DNA of 32,579 nt from Candidatus Kerfeldbacteria bacterium (GTDB lineage Bacteria > Patescibacteriota > Patescibacteriia > UBA9570): the NCBI GenBank assembly GCA_016182495.1, contig JACPGK010000014.1, positions 1 to 32,579 of the forward strand, in the 5' to 3' direction. Shown here piece by piece: positions 2,417-22,102 of the stretch (within the stretch, counting starts at the first letter, position 1; every line of letters begins with the position of its first letter). The position numbers were made by a program, and so were the translations under genes. The notes below the pieces were generated by a model that saw only the letters and a list, made by a program, of their open reading frames with translations, ran no database searches and was not told the DNA's origin.

Positions 2417-3136
2417 ATGAATAAAGATAATGGAATACAACTCCCCCAGTACCACACGTGGTCACGCCTGCACCCACAGTGTAAGCGTTGCGGTACACAA
2501 GAAACCAAACACAGAGGAGGTGGCTTGTGTTACACGTGTTACTATAAAGTCTACCGTGATAAGCATCCTGAACTCATAAAGAAAGCTATGAGACGGTGGT
2601 TAGATAAGCGTAAAGGCAGGTTTACATATGAGGAAGAAAAAGTATCAGAGTCTACGAAAATGGTATTTAGAGCAGTTGATGCATCATATTATATTCACGT
2701 TAATGAAAAAAAATTGTATCCAAGAAAAATTTGGATAGTGAACTTTTTATTATCATTTGTGGTTGCCTACTTATTCATGGTTAGCGCGTTAGATTTCAGT
2801 TACTTCGGATGTTATTTTACTTCTGACATACCTAATCAATGCACTCTATGGCCTGGCTTAACAAATATTGTCATTGCATTAGTAATAAATATTGTTTTGG
2901 CGTTGGTTGTTCCGTATTGGATATTAATGTTGCTAAGTGATTGGGTATATGATCTTGGTAAAAAAACTGAATCAGAGCTTATGAGACAAACTGTAAAAAC
3001 CCTAGAGCAGGATGGGTCTATAGATGCAAAATGTGCAGAAGTTGTTACGAATGGTATTATGAGCATGCATTGGTCACCAAGTGAAAGAATGATGGCCGCT
3101 ATAAATACGAGCAATGATAATAATAAAGATGGATAA
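2417..3136 (+). CDS. Uncharacterised protein with N-terminal zinc-ribbon-like CxxC..CxxC and two TM helices
   Basis: CKRCGTQ...GLCYTCYYK followed by two hydrophobic segments; co-directional and tightly packed with its neighbours. Confidence 0.7.
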   Translation: MNKDNGIQLPQYHTWSRLHPQCKRCGTQETKHRGGGLCYTCYYKVYRDKHPELIKKAMRRWLDKRKGRFTYEEEKVSESTKMVFRAVDASYYIHVNEKKLYPRKIWIVNFLLSFVVAYLFMVSALDFSYFGCYFTSDIPNQCTLWPGLTNIVIALVINIVLALVVPYWILMLLSDWVYDLGKKTESELMRQTVKTLEQDGSIDAKCAEVVTNGIMSMHWSPSERMMAAINTSNDNNKDG

Positions 3137-4637
3137 AGCGGTTTGTTATATTCGTGTCTCAACAAAAGAACAGGCACGACCTGGACGTCTTTCTCTTGGT
3201 ACACAAAAACAGATATGTGAAGACTTAGCTAAACGTTCAGAACTTCAGATAATAAAAGTATTTGAAGATGCTGGAAGGAGCGCTACTAAGATAAATCGTG
3301 CCGCCTTGCAAGAGATGTTAAGTTTTATCAATGACAATCCTGAAGTTAAAACAGTTATTGTCCAAGATACAGACAGATTAGCTCGCAATACTCAAGATCA
3401 CCTAACAATCATGGCACTCTTGAGGAAACAAGGAGTCCAGTTAATGTCAGCCTCACAGCCAGGCATAGATGACACACCGGAAGGCAATCTGCTTGATACT
3501 ATACTAGCTGCTGTAAATCAACTTCAGTCTGATCAGAATGGGCGCAAGGTTAGAAATAACATGAAAAGAAAAGCCCAGGAAGGCTGGTGGCCAACACAAG
3601 CACCGTTGGGCTATTTGAATGTTAAAAACGAGTTTGAAAAGAACATTATCAAGACTGACCCACAAGGTTCCAAGTACATCAAACAAGCGTTTAAATTATT
3701 TAGTACAGGAAATTATTCAGTTCGTGAGCTTGGTGACGTACTTTACCAAAATGGTTTTAGAAACCATCAGAATAGATCAGTAGGCAAAAACGCTATCAAC
3801 TCTATTCTGAAGAATAAATTTTACTTAGGTAAACTGATTTGGAAACAAGAGGAGCATAAAGGTCAACATGAAGCTTTAATTGACGAACAGACGTTTGATA
3901 AGGTTCAACGGATTTTATACTTGCATGGAGGAAAAGATAACCGTCGTCGTAAGCATACTTTTCTACTGCGAGGCTTTATCTATTGTGTCTGTGGGGCAAG
4001 AATGACCGCCGAGCATCACCCTAAAAAGAATAAGTCGTATTATCGTTGCCCGAAAGGCAAGGCCTGTGACGAGCCATTTATTCAAGTGAATGATCTGGAA
4101 GATGAGGCCGCTAATTTATTTAAGAACCTGCATTTTTCTGATAAGTTGCAACAAACATTAGTGGGTAGACTGCAAACCATTTTTGAGAAAAGAAAAGGTG
4201 TTATTGATAAAGAGCGTCAAACGATCATTAACCAAAGAGTAGCGGTTGAACAAAAAAGAAATGTTGCAGAGGATAAGTTATTGAAAGACGTTATTTCAGA
4301 TGAGGATTTTGGTCGTATCCGTAAGACTGTCGTGGATGAACTAGAGGCTTTGAATAAAGAGCTGAAACGTTTAGACGCTGAGCGTAATTTTGAAATTGAC
4401 CCCATACGAGTCGTATTGGAGTTTACGCGGGATATTCACTCGGCTTATATCAAAGCCCCTGAGAGGCTCAAGAGGCGCTATTTAAATCTATTCTGGGATA
4501 GGTTAGTCGTTCAGAATAAAAGTATCGTTTCTGTAGAACCTACAAAGGTGGTTAAGGCATTGTTGGATGCGAACGCTTTGGTAACAAAAGAACCGGCATT
4601 GAAGCCGGTTCTAATAACGGTTCGTCAGCAGGGGTAG
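3129..4637 (+). CDS. Large serine recombinase (resolvase + recombinase + zinc ribbon domains)
   Basis: N-terminal VCYIRVSTKEQA, IVQDTDRLAR, zinc ribbon CVCGARM...YYRCPKGKAC, C-terminal coiled coil. Likely start ATG 3129. Confidence 0.93.
   Translation: MDKAVCYIRVSTKEQARPGRLSLGTQKQICEDLAKRSELQIIKVFEDAGRSATKINRAALQEMLSFINDNPEVKTVIVQDTDRLARNTQDHLTIMALLRKQGVQLMSASQPGIDDTPEGNLLDTILAAVNQLQSDQNGRKVRNNMKRKAQEGWWPTQAPLGYLNVKNEFEKNIIKTDPQGSKYIKQAFKLFSTGNYSVRELGDVLYQNGFRNHQNRSVGKNAINSILKNKFYLGKLIWKQEEHKGQHEALIDEQTFDKVQRILYLHGGKDNRRRKHTFLLRGFIYCVCGARMTAEHHPKKNKSYYRCPKGKACDEPFIQVNDLEDEAANLFKNLHFSDKLQQTLVGRLQTIFEKRKGVIDKERQTIINQRVAVEQKRNVAEDKLLKDVISDEDFGRIRKTVVDELEALNKELKRLDAERNFEIDPIRVVLEFTRDIHSAYIKAPERLKRRYLNLFWDRLVVQNKSIVSVEPTKVVKALLDANALVTKEPALKPVLITVRQQG
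4580..4611 (-). terminator. Putative rho-independent terminator for tRNA-Trp, embedded in the recombinase 3' end
   Basis: Perfect 8-bp stem GAACCGGC-TTCAAT-GCCGGTTC followed on the minus strand by TTTTGTTACC. Confidence 0.6.
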
Positions 4638-4700
4638 CAGGACTCGAACCCGCGACGCGCGGTTTTGGAGACCGCCGCTCTACCAGCTGAGCTATACCCC
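4630..4700 (-). tRNA. tRNA-Trp (anticodon CCA)
   Basis: Reverse complement GGGGTATAGCTCAGCTGGTAGAGCGGCGGTCTCCAAAACCGCGCGTCGCGGGTTCGAGTCCTGCTACCCC; canonical D, anticodon and T arms; CCA tail not encoded. Confidence 0.93.
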
Positions 4701-4707
4701 TATTCTA

Positions 4708-17648: not shown

Positions 17649-17716
<68 letters not shown>

Positions 17717-17723
<7 letters not shown>

Positions 17724-17795
17724 AACAGGATGTGTCCGAAAATTTGCAAACTCAACGTCCGCACGAGCGGGCGTTTTGGTTAGCAAATTCCAGGG
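17717..17795. repeat. Direct repeat copy 1 (79 nt, includes the last 7 nt of tRNA-Gln)
   Basis: CCAGCCAaaCAGGATGTGTCCGAAAATTTGCAAACTCAACgTCCGCACGAGCGGGCGTTTTGGTTAGCAAATTCCAGGG; 76/79 identical to copy 2. Confidence 0.95.
17741..17789. other. 49-nt imperfect palindrome with terminator-like core inside direct repeat copy 1
   Basis: AATTTGC...GCAAATT outer arms; core CGTCCGC-ACGA-GCGGGCG followed by TTTT on the + strand. Confidence 0.75.
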
Positions 17796-17839
17796 CGTTT
17801 TGAATTCCACTTCCACCTTCCACTCCCGCAGTTGGGCGT

Positions 17840-17946
17840 TCGAGCCGACCGAACTCACGCAACTCGGTTATTTGCGCTTCAATACTCAAAATCTGCCTAT
17901 TCGGCTCGTCCGTTGATTTTCGTGCATAGAGAAAGAATTTGCTCAT
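17840..17946 (-). pseudogene. Truncated serine recombinase N-terminus
   Basis: MSKFFLYARKSTDEPNRQILSIEAQITELREFGR is a typical resolvase-domain start; the ORF then loses similarity and ends inside the direct repeat. Confidence 0.8.
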
Positions 17947-18013: not shown

Positions 18014-18274
18014 GTGGTTAATAAGGATGTACAGATTGGCTTTTTAGTCCAAGTTGAGTCAACGTGTCAGTCGTACGAAAGTATCAGAACTTTGACTAAG
18101 TTGCTTGAAAAGAATTTAGTAACAACTAACTGGTCACTAATGTCTGATGGATTAACATTTCGAATGGGAATACTAACAGGCCGTTTACATGGCTATGATG
18201 AAGAGGATGCTATTAAGCAGCTGATTACATCAAGATTAAAGAAAGGACTACTGAAATTACCAAAAGCAGGTTAA
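18014..18274 (+). CDS. Small uncharacterised protein
   Basis: 86-aa ORF with GTG start, continuous 5' extension without ATG; the start may be misassigned. Confidence 0.45.
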   Translation: MVNKDVQIGFLVQVESTCQSYESIRTLTKLLEKNLVTTNWSLMSDGLTFRMGILTGRLHGYDEEDAIKQLITSRLKKGLLKLPKAG

Positions 18275-18416: not shown

Positions 18417-19256
18417 ATGAAATCAATCATTTTATTCGAACATAGCCCAGTCCGTCGCATTTGGGTTGAGGCTGAAGAAAAATGGTATTTTAGTGTAGTT
18501 GATGTGGTTGGCATTTTAGCAGACAGTGCTAATCCTAATAACTACTGGAAAGTCCTTAAAAACCGTCTAAATAAGGAAGGTAGTCAGGTAGTTACAAAAT
18601 GTAACCAACTGAAATTAATGGCTAAGGATGGTAAAAAATATCTTACGGATGTAGCGGATGTTGAAAGTATGCTACGGATTATTCAAAGCATCCCATCTAA
18701 AAAAGCCGAGCCTTTTAAGCAATGGCTAGCAAAAGTTGGCTATGAACGCCTACAAGAAACGGTAGATCCGGAACAAGGGTTAAATCGAGCTAGAGAAAAT
18801 TGGCAAGAACTGGGTCGTTCTGACAAATGGATTGAGAAGCGCATGCTTGGCCAAGAAACCCGAAATAAGCTGACTGACTATTGGAAAAATCACAAAGTGG
18901 AAGAGCAATCAGAATATGCCATGCTAACGAATATTATTCACAAAGAATGGAGCGGGATTAATGTCAGCGAACATAAACAACTGAAGAAATTGAAAGGGCA
19001 CAATCTACGTGGTCATATGACCGAAGCGGAGCTAATTTTCACTGCGTTAGCGGAACTTTCAACTCGCCAAATTGCCCAAGAAGATCAAGCTGAAGGCTTT
19101 AATCAAAATGCCCATTCAGCCAAAAAAGGCGGTGCTATTGCCGGTAATGCGCGTAAGCAACTTGAACAACAAACGGGTAAAAAAGTAGTCAGTAATGAAA
19201 ATTTTTTAGCAGCACCTAAACCTAAACGATCACTACCAAAATCAGATAAAACCTGA
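18417..19256 (+). CDS. BRO-N/DinD-like phage antirepressor family protein
   Basis: VRRIWVEAEEKWYFSVVDVVGILADSANPNNYWKVLKNRL; KYLTDVADVESMLRIIQSIPSKKAEPFKQWLAKVGYERLQE; DinD-like C-terminus. Confidence 0.88.
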   Translation: MKSIILFEHSPVRRIWVEAEEKWYFSVVDVVGILADSANPNNYWKVLKNRLNKEGSQVVTKCNQLKLMAKDGKKYLTDVADVESMLRIIQSIPSKKAEPFKQWLAKVGYERLQETVDPEQGLNRARENWQELGRSDKWIEKRMLGQETRNKLTDYWKNHKVEEQSEYAMLTNIIHKEWSGINVSEHKQLKKLKGHNLRGHMTEAELIFTALAELSTRQIAQEDQAEGFNQNAHSAKKGGAIAGNARKQLEQQTGKKVVSNENFLAAPKPKRSLPKSDKT

Positions 19257-19258
19257 CC

Positions 19259-21406
19259 ATGCTCACACCCGATGAGAAAATTAAACTCTTCTTATCTTTA
19301 TTTAAAGGTAGGCCAGAGATCTTTGCGAAACGCTGGGAATCACGTGATGGTTTAAAATCTGGGTATTCACCCGTCTGTCAGAATGAATGGAAGCGCGGTA
19401 TTTGTACTAAGGCCCAGGGTCAACCATGTCAGAACTGTGTGTACACTGCTCTGACCCAAGAACATGTTCGTCAACACTTACAAGGTGAGTTAGTGGTTGG
19501 CATTTATCCAATGCTAGCAGATAACACTTCTCATTTTTTAGTAGCTGATTTTGACCAGACTTCGTGGCAAGAGGACGCTACAAAATTTATTGCTCAATGT
19601 GAACATTATCACATCCCAGCTTATTTAGAGCGCTCGCGTTCCGGTAATGGTGGTCATGTTTGGCTATTTTTCAGTGAACCCTATCCAGCAGCGCAAAGTC
19701 GTTTACTTGGTTTTCGACTTTTAAAAGCAGCCGGCTTAGTCAATCAATTCGATCCACTGGATAGCTTTGATCGGTTTATTCCGAATCAGGATATGTTGCG
19801 ACGTGGCGCGATTGGGAACTTAATTGCCTTACCATTACAACATCAGGCTCGCCAACATGGTAATACTGTATTTCTCGATACAAACAAGGATTATCAGCCG
19901 TATGAAGATCAATGGACATTTCTGCAACAGGTTGAAACCAGTACCCCAGAGCAACTAGACAGCGTACTAGCTGATTTCATGGACAAGAAAGGTACAGGTT
20001 CAAGTCAGTCGCAAAAAGTAGAAATTACCATCAATAACTATCTCAGTATTCCAAGAGCAAGTGTCACCTCATTATTGCAAGAGTTCCTCACCAAACAACT
20101 TAATTTTTTGAATGCGCAGTATCTCGTTCTTAAGCGCATGAATCGCAGCACCTATGGCATTGAAAAATATTTTCGTTTAATTGAAGCCGATGATGAACAC
20201 ATTTTTCTACCCAGAGGATTTTTGCAGGCACTTACGACATTTTGTGATCAACATGACATTTCCTATAACATTCAGAATCAACGCCATACCTGTGATAAAG
20301 TGTCATTTCATTCATCATATACATTGCGTACATATCAACTCCTGGCCATCGAAGCGTTAGCGCAACACAATGAAGGTATTGTTGTGGCGCCACCGGGTGC
20401 AGGCAAAACAGTCATTGGTTTAGAAGTCATTGCCCGTCAACAGCAACCAGCTTTAGTGATTGTGCATACCAAACAAATTATGGATCAGTGGGTACAACGC
20501 ATTGAAGATATGTTTGGTATTGCAAAACCAGAAATTGGTCAGCTGAGTGGAGCCAAGAAAAAAGTTGGCAAGTTAATCACGGTGGCGATGATCCAAACAT
20601 TGAGTCGGATGGAATCATTGGAAAAATATAAAGAGCAATTTGGTACTATTGTTGTGGATGAGTGTCATCACATGCCAGCCCAGATGTTTCGTAAAGTGAT
20701 TCCACAGTTTAACCCTTATTATTTGTATGGCCTGACAGCTACACCAGAACGTAAATTTAATGATGCGGCTTTGATTGAAACTTACCTTGGTGAGATTGTT
20801 TCAACGATTGATCAGTTGGCCATGCAAGACAACGCCAATCCAACAACTTCATCTCAACTGATTGATCTACATATCCTGGAAACAGCCGTGCAACTACCGT
20901 TTGCAATCCGAACCACTAATTTGGCATTAGGCTACAAAGCCCTACTGTTTGATACTCAACGTAATCAACAAATCGTAAGTGATATTATACAGTTAGCCGG
21001 CCAACATAAAAAATGTTTAGTGATGACTGAACGAAAAGATCACGTAGAACTGTTACGTTACTATTTAGGAAATAATCACGAAGTGATCACGTTAACTGGC
21101 GATTTAACTAAAACTCAACGTACTATGCGTTTGAAGCAAATCCAAACTGGTGATTTTGACATTGTTGTAGCAACTGGACAGCTACTTGGTGAAGGCACAG
21201 ATATTCCTAGTTTTGATGCCTTATTTTTAGTCTATCCATTTTCTTCGGCAGTAAAGTTAAAACAGTATATTGGTCGCATTCAACGTGGCAAAGAAACTGT
21301 CCGTAGTGTATATGATTATCGTGATCGGCAGATTGATTTCTTTGACCGGATGTATAAAAAAAGAAAGCAGGTGTATACAAAATACTTTGGAGTACAGCCA
21401 GAATAA
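19259..21406 (+). CDS. TOTE-type archaeo-eukaryotic primase fused to SF2 helicase
   Basis: AEP motifs LVADFDQ and RSGNGGHVWLFF; helicase Walker A APPGAGKT, box II DECH (VVDECHHMPA), LTATPER, C-terminal QYIGRIQRG. Confidence 0.87.
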   Translation: MLTPDEKIKLFLSLFKGRPEIFAKRWESRDGLKSGYSPVCQNEWKRGICTKAQGQPCQNCVYTALTQEHVRQHLQGELVVGIYPMLADNTSHFLVADFDQTSWQEDATKFIAQCEHYHIPAYLERSRSGNGGHVWLFFSEPYPAAQSRLLGFRLLKAAGLVNQFDPLDSFDRFIPNQDMLRRGAIGNLIALPLQHQARQHGNTVFLDTNKDYQPYEDQWTFLQQVETSTPEQLDSVLADFMDKKGTGSSQSQKVEITINNYLSIPRASVTSLLQEFLTKQLNFLNAQYLVLKRMNRSTYGIEKYFRLIEADDEHIFLPRGFLQALTTFCDQHDISYNIQNQRHTCDKVSFHSSYTLRTYQLLAIEALAQHNEGIVVAPPGAGKTVIGLEVIARQQQPALVIVHTKQIMDQWVQRIEDMFGIAKPEIGQLSGAKKKVGKLITVAMIQTLSRMESLEKYKEQFGTIVVDECHHMPAQMFRKVIPQFNPYYLYGLTATPERKFNDAALIETYLGEIVSTIDQLAMQDNANPTTSSQLIDLHILETAVQLPFAIRTTNLALGYKALLFDTQRNQQIVSDIIQLAGQHKKCLVMTERKDHVELLRYYLGNNHEVITLTGDLTKTQRTMRLKQIQTGDFDIVVATGQLLGEGTDIPSFDALFLVYPFSSAVKLKQYIGRIQRGKETVRSVYDYRDRQIDFFDRMYKKRKQVYTKYFGVQPE

Positions 21407-21593
21407 GTGCTAGCAGCATATTACGCAACTATACCCATCACTAGTCTAGGTATTTCTAGTCGCGATCGAGACAATGTGATATCCTTTTTATAGTGTCTCG
21501 TTTGTCTCATTCTACCTGACCCACCAACCCTGTAGGTAACTCGAAATTTAATCCTAATAAACCCTTGGCGGTCTAGGTTCTAGACCAGTACGT

Positions 21594-21672
21594 CCAGCCA
21601 GTCAGGATGTGTCCGAAAATTTGCAAACTCAACATCCGCACGAGCGGGCGTTTTGGTTAGCAAATTCCAGGG
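21594..21672. repeat. Direct repeat copy 2 (79 nt)
   Basis: CCAGCCAgtCAGGATGTGTCCGAAAATTTGCAAACTCAACaTCCGCACGAGCGGGCGTTTTGGTTAGCAAATTCCAGGG. Confidence 0.95.
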
Positions 21673-21700: not shown

Positions 21701-22102
21701 CTAACTGTGTGATTCTTCAATGTCATACTTAGATGGTGGTGGAACAGGACGTATTTTTTCGCGTTGGTGTGCATCATCAATTTCTTTTTTAGATCCAAAC
21801 AAAACTGATAATTCATCAATTTTTTGACAGACTAATTCGGAGATACCTGCTATACGTAACATTGCCGCCGTTTTTCTCAACTCACCTGCTTCTGCACGAG
21901 AATCACTATCTTGTTTTTCGGATATTTCCATGGATTGCTTCAAACTAGCCAATATATTTGCTTGCTTCACTAAAGCATCAATGCTGTCTCGCAATTTCTG
22001 TTCTGCCTGACCAATGACTGTTTTGGCTTTTTCGATTCGGTCTGATACATGCATTTGATCAAACGATTTTACTTTTCTACCAAACCCTGGTTCACCTATC
22101 AT
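21701..22102 (-). CDS. Uncharacterised coiled-coil protein
   Basis: 133-aa ORF, heptad-rich (RIEKAKTVIGQAEQKLRDSIDALVKQANILASLKQSMEI). Confidence 0.5.
   Translation of the reverse strand: MIGEPGFGRKVKSFDQMHVSDRIEKAKTVIGQAEQKLRDSIDALVKQANILASLKQSMEISEKQDSDSRAEAGELRKTAAMLRIAGISELVCQKIDELSVLFGSKKEIDDAHQREKIRPVPPPSKYDIEESHS

Follow-up and report, generated by a model that had tools for sequence, protein, structure and literature searches.

A BRO gene and an AEP-helicase gene as probable independent cargo of a relic tRNA-Gln element in a Candidatus Kerfeldbacteria genome

The stretch of DNA analyzed here, called the window throughout, comprises 32,579 nt of contig JACPGK010000014.1 from a Candidatus Kerfeldbacteria bacterium of the phylum Patescibacteriota (assembly GCA_016182495.1). 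Next to a tRNA-Gln gene it carries two collinear ORFs, encoding a BRO protein and an AEP-SF2 helicase, which are bracketed by direct repeats and accompanied by remnants of a serine integrase gene. The features discussed below are as follows.

17649–17723, plus strand: tRNA-Gln (TTG), anchor of the putative element (ARAGORN)
17712–17858, minus strand: C-terminal integrase remnant, residues 444–492, 53% identity, running into tRNA-Gln (tblastn)
17717–17795, plus strand: left direct repeat (attL-like), comprising the tRNA 3' terminus and about 25 terminal codons, antisense, of the serine-integrase gene (blastn)
17839–17946, minus strand: N-terminal integrase remnant, residues 1–36, 81% identity (tblastn)
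18014–18274, plus strand: GTG-start ORF of 86 aa, without family or relative, probably no component
18417–19256, plus strand: BRO ORF, 279 aa, ATG start; Bro-N domain, full-length match to PADLOC PDC-S13, predicted DdrC-like fold
19259–21406, plus strand: AEP-SF2 helicase ORF, 715 aa, ATG start
19274–19963, plus strand: AEP-TOTE primase domain inside the helicase ORF (residues 6–235, Pfam PF22548)
20318–21286, plus strand: ResIII and Helicase_C core (residues 354–676), closest to XPBII/RAD25 and RadD
21575–21593: decayed stretch resembling the tRNA-Gln 3' end, preceding the right repeat
21594–21672, plus strand: right direct repeat (attR-like), a second copy of the integrase 3' terminus

Both ORFs, and the 2 nt that separate the BRO stop from the helicase ATG in the ORF reading, agree exactly with an earlier note on this DNA, which had taken the spacing to imply translational coupling. 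The spacing itself is nothing unusual: gaps of 10 nt or less make up 10 of the 22 same-strand neighbor gaps across the window, so that short gaps are ordinary here and the 2-nt gap alone implies no special coupling. In addition, BRO genes elsewhere closely adjoin many unrelated genes, among them housekeeping genes only a few nt away, and a short gap was rejected as a mark of BRO operon coupling for this reason. Matches in a promoter and terminator scan did not rise above those in shuffled sequence. Neither the ORF at 18014–18274, which had been proposed as a possible third component, nor the stretch at 21701–22102 gave a family match in domain searches or had a relative in the set of fetched loci; both were dropped as parts of a system.

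The domain assignments of the earlier note proved to be right: BRO carries Bro-N, and the helicase carries AEP-TOTE, ResIII and Helicase_C. In the helicase, the Pfam match to AEP-TOTE (4.9e-86) covers positions 1–229 of the 230-position profile, nearly its full length, and is followed by ResIII (residues 354–498) and Helicase_C (residues 573–676). The AEP catalytic motifs hhhDhD, sxH and hD are present as D97-x-D99, S128..H133 and D171, residues that are invariant across nine aligned relatives, and the SF2 Walker A and B motifs and motifs III and VI are present as GAGKT, DECHH, TATP and QYIGRIQR. Four cysteines of the AEP half (C40, C49, C57 and C60), common to L026–L028 and missing from other aligned relatives, may form a zinc site. 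A PDB sequence search related the helicase core to XPBII (8.8e-32), RadD (5e-15) and also UvsW, and the primase half to 7nqd and 7nqf, which were deposited as TPR_REGION domain-containing protein and which we take to be CRISPR-associated primase-polymerases. The NCBIfam model for CRISPR-associated PrimPol matches the ORF below its cut-off, and the ORF also falls short of the equivalog cut-offs of the XPB and RadD models in NCBIfam; relative to XPB/RAD25 and RadD, the best PDB relatives of its core, the window protein adds an AEP primase half. Z1568 itself is an AEP-SF2 fusion, and the window protein likewise joins an AEP-TOTE domain to an SF2 helicase, as in the E. coli Z1568-like AEP family. 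This family has been listed within the Prim-Pol clade (PMC5862659).

As had been read from the letters, the helicase ORF has no nuclease domain detectable by Pfam, NCBIfam or PDB sequence search; its AlphaFold model (mean pLDDT 69, pTM 0.41) was set aside both for fold claims and for the nuclease verdict. Bacteroidota helicases of about 1000 aa (L107, L109 and others) continue at the C-terminus for about 280 aa that match no Pfam family; this extension is absent from the window helicase and therefore cannot supply a nuclease here. The description of the enzyme as TOTE-type holds for its AEP domain only. A TOTE system is defined with TPR, OB and TBP genes plus an effector (PMC12458937); the window helicase shares the AEP-TOTE effector domain, but by Pfam the cassette, which holds only the BRO gene, the helicase gene and a short orphan ORF, is without TPR-OB (cold-shock) or TBP genes, and hence there is no TOTE system in the sense of that study.

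The BRO protein carries Bro-N (PF02498, residues 12–106, 1.6e-8), and its residues 3–272 match positions 6–275 of the 286-position PADLOC profile PDC-S13 (2.5e-123, 409 bits). PDC-S13 is itself a computational phage defense candidate for which a literature search by name found nothing, so that no function can be inherited from this full-length match. The predicted model of BRO (pLDDT 87) has Deinococcus DdrC as its best solved-structure match in Foldseek, with an E-value of 6.4e-7, a probability of 1.00 and most of the model covered; TM-scores are modest (TMq 0.41 for the best match, 0.28–0.43 overall), and the fold match comes without detectable sequence similarity. DdrC is a protein that binds DNA in single- and double-stranded form, protects it and anneals strands (PMC5436757). 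The likeness, seen in the predicted fold, is consistent with the association with DNA damage suggested in the earlier note; DdrC is, however, a damage-induced host gene, whereas BRO appears as mobile cargo. The closest viral folds are Bro-N and KilA-N phage proteins. The combined label BRO/DinD holds for its Bro-N part and fails for its DinD part: locus L115 has a DinD-like Bro-N protein, presumably DinD, 376 nt downstream of its helicase, and the window protein shares with it the Bro-N domain alone and no BLAST similarity.

BRO relatives were found in 79 of the 380 genomes of the phylum and the helicase in 15 of the 380, under differing E-value limits. Besides the window's genome and that of locus L027, four genomes (G141, G299, G336 and G366) hold both genes, always on separate contigs. 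Judged from this occurrence, BRO is independent of the helicase and has its own distribution. At L042 and L068 a BRO gene stands between helicase and methyltransferase genes, as identified by sequence reading without a family scan. Arrays of Bro-N-type genes occur at L045, L061 and L064, where BRO-BRO-DinD-like and BRO-RhuM rows (families by reading) lie close together on one strand. Direct repeats were also seen near the ends of some BRO genes (L048, 1396–1460 and 2329–2393; L052; L046; L051), the L052 repeat resembling a copy of the 3' end of a neighboring tatD-like gene; 4 of 31 BRO genes were bracketed in this way, one of the four by a dispersed repeat, versus 1 of 78 other genes at the same loci (Fisher p 0.02).

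The repeats at 17717–17795 and 21594–21672 share 96% identity over 79 bp on the same strand and bracket the BRO and helicase genes (blastn); a separate repeat scan recovered them as a 98-bp family, D1, at 88%. The tRNA portion of the right copy is decayed. Searched against its own genome, the repeat stretch occurs in only these two places at the search threshold, and a longer repeat query revealed weaker similarity at a tRNA-Gln(CTG) on contig C19. This contig encodes an intact 492-aa serine integrase whose 3' end overlaps that tRNA gene, and with this protein as tblastn query the integrase remnants of the window were found: residues 1–36 and 444–492 remain, as two minus-strand pieces between the left repeat and BRO. 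Residues 37–443 are lost, so that the window cassette is non-autonomous; it would be movable only with the help of another copy, such as the intact C19 integrase acting in trans. The two integrase 3' ends fit successive insertion at one tRNA gene. Taken together, the BRO-helicase pair is best read as lying inside a relic tRNA-anchored mobile element of about 3.9 kb.

In three genomes of the same family, an empty-site comparison found tRNA-Gln present with flanks that are not collinear (in relative G003, for example, tRNA-Gln and the ABC-transporter neighbors are separated by 10.8 kb that hold other genes), and for this reason no empty site is claimed. With Islander-type tRNA islands the window shares an intact tRNA gene and a direct repeat in the same orientation, with 3.9 kb between; unlike in those islands, the integrase is a serine and not a tyrosine enzyme, and its gene is deleted internally. 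A second serine recombinase of 507 aa is encoded at window positions 3114–4637, its 3' end overlapping tRNA-Trp (4628–4701), and a tyrosine integrase gene (781–1683) lies upstream of it in a tightly packed gene row.

The association of such integrases with tRNA genes extends beyond this locus. Within the same genome, where the integrase contigs include C19, C4, C35, C21, C22 and C32 (L263, L265–L269 and L271), seven of eight integrase loci end at, or at most about 200 nt from, an opposite-strand tRNA gene, the tRNAs being Gln-CTG, Lys, Ala, Val, Trp, Ser and Gln-TTG. Relatives of the integrase at E ≤ 1e-60 are present in 150 of the 380 genomes of the phylum. Among the 28 best loci with enough sequence (other genomes, L272–L300), a tRNA gene lay from −120 to +400 nt of the integrase stop in 18, a number that rises to 23 of 28 with L280, L281, L287, L288 and L295, where the tRNA lies slightly further inside the end of the integrase ORF and which were admitted by widening the range after the result had been seen; all 23 arrangements are tail-to-tail. 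These arrangements strongly suggest that serine integrases of Patescibacteria target tRNA genes. In two papers it is stated as a rule that tRNA genes are not targets of serine integrases (PMC4383910; PMC9262239), and a literature search found no paper on tRNA-using serine integrases of Patescibacteria. If confirmed, such enzymes would break the stated rule of target choice and mark islands in a phylum for which genetic tools are scarce and to which they may also bring site-specific integration vectors. The sole integrase of this genome without a nearby tRNA shares a stretch with a RhuM-like ORF (by reading) on contig C38 (L303, 4974–5999 and 9665–11218).

The helicase family is common: hundreds of genome loci carry relatives, and 1,037 plasmid records match the helicase, only 91 of them over most of the query. 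For comparison, 100 non-duplicate helicase loci were drawn from 80 genome-contig loci, 15 whole-genome hits and eight viral loci. All 20 tRNA genes found within 3.2 kb downstream of helicases lie on the opposite strand with their 3' ends facing the helicase, and 14 tRNAs occur within 800 bp (75.5 kb of sequence) versus seven at 3.2–6.4 kb (182 kb); since these counts include tRNA clusters, about 15 loci stand behind them. At L030 (tRNA-His) and L137 (tRNA-Ser), direct repeats at the 3' end of the tRNA gene enclose the helicase and a Fic gene; at L149 (tRNA-Arg) they enclose it with a RelE/ParE-like gene (by reading), and a weaker repeat (68%) was found at L033 (tRNA-Met, PIN). At L028 a serine integrase adjoins the helicase at tRNA-Ser, and a flanking repeat was not found there; a serine integrase is recognizable in 8 of the 100 helicase loci.

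The genes beside the helicase vary widely. Pfam families, counted in aggregate over 71 immediate same-strand neighbors, included Fic (12), SLFN_AlbA_2 (9), RhuM (5), AbiEii (4), HipA (2), AbiEi (2) and PIN (2), and Bro-N was absent among the 25 families shown. The earlier note was right in seeing a conflict- or defense-type setting. Partner labels for each locus came from BLAST and motif matching and were placed on a tree of 96 helicases built by a quick method (FastTree). Fic required 14 changes for 15 rows, compared with a shuffled mean of 14.1, and so shows no phylogenetic signal; AlbA required 7 changes for 11 rows and RhuM 3 for 5, clustering which indicates that some pairings are inherited. 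At 60 of the 96 loci, screening for six partner families within 450 nt gave no match, and partner association is therefore a tendency rather than a rule. Among the 96 helicase relatives, BRO is the nearest recognized partner in the window only, and a BLAST search of the helicase loci with BRO as query found, besides the window, L027 alone. The helicase partners are best read as exchangeable, a reading also supported by the 89%-identical helicases of L124 and L127 with their differing upstream genes, and BRO as one that is seldom used.

Combining these observations, we favor, with moderate confidence, a relic tRNA-Gln element carrying a conserved helicase and BRO as independent cargo rather than a dedicated pair. 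The element would stem from a Patescibacteria serine-integrase family that sits at tRNA genes, its own integrase having since been deleted internally. Its conserved cargo would be the AEP-XPB-like helicase, which across bacteria appears repeatedly at tRNA genes beside exchangeable toxin- or defense-type genes and which may act on invading or damaged DNA by ATP-driven translocation, possibly with AEP priming or fill-in. BRO would be an independently acting DNA-binding defense or stress protein that may bind broken or single-stranded DNA like DdrC, and the two would be co-expressed passengers. We infer a defense function only from gene company and domain content.

The reading proposed in the earlier note, a dedicated two-gene defense in which BRO would be the sensor of phage or DNA damage and steer a translationally coupled AEP-helicase effector, is unlikely, and we give it little credence. 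The two genes are indeed collinear with a 2-nt gap, the predicted fold of BRO is similar to that of a DNA-binding protein of the damage response, and L027 also has a related BRO (47% identity) 0.6 kb from a related helicase (48%). Yet the L027 BRO is divergently oriented with a stop in its frame, BRO stands at no further helicase locus, four genomes keep both genes on separate contigs, the helicase swaps partners, and gaps as short are ordinary in the window. In the neighborhood survey, BRO was not a regular partner: the pairing was essentially unique to this contig, much the outcome that the earlier note had named as refuting its reading, and elsewhere the helicase often stood beside unrelated toxin or defense genes.

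Two further explanations leave the helicase at the center. It might be the replication or mobilization enzyme of the element, with Fic, AbiEii, HipA, PIN and BRO as addiction or stability modules, a view to which we attach a low but real probability. Mobile elements often carry AEP proteins (PMC5862659), helicase loci are tRNA-anchored, many plasmids encode related helicases (one of which has AlpA and inovirus Gp2-like genes as neighbors), and classic toxin-antitoxin genes are among the partners; on the other hand, the core is XPB/RadD/UvsW-like, unlike the replicative SF3 and DnaB types, the cassette contains no recognized origin, relaxase or excisionase, and few helicase loci have a recognizable integrase. 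Rather doubtful as well is a single modular immune system, in which foreign DNA would be recognized by the constant helicase, which then switches on an adjoining toxin-like partner. Many partners lie 0–40 nt from the helicase, and partners are swapped upstream of near-identical helicases that share their downstream gene: at L124 and L127 the helicases are 89% identical and the upstream genes unrelated (AbiEii versus Fic). However, the placement of the partner varies (upstream, downstream, divergent or convergent), a recognized partner is missing from many loci, and BRO, for one, occurs elsewhere as free-living cargo. It is likewise only tentatively that we entertain a modular immune element with a constant AEP-XPB core and interchangeable partners (Fic, Schlafen/AlbA, RhuM, AbiEii, HipA, BRO), spread in Patescibacteria by tRNA-targeting serine integrases.

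For the relic element with independent cargo, which we prefer, the exchangeable partner turns the question of operon function into a testable one, that of a constant core versus a swappable partner. In two Chitinophaga species, a 205-aa gene is conserved downstream of the helicase (L124, 10034–10651; L127, 9155–9772) and is a possible further component.
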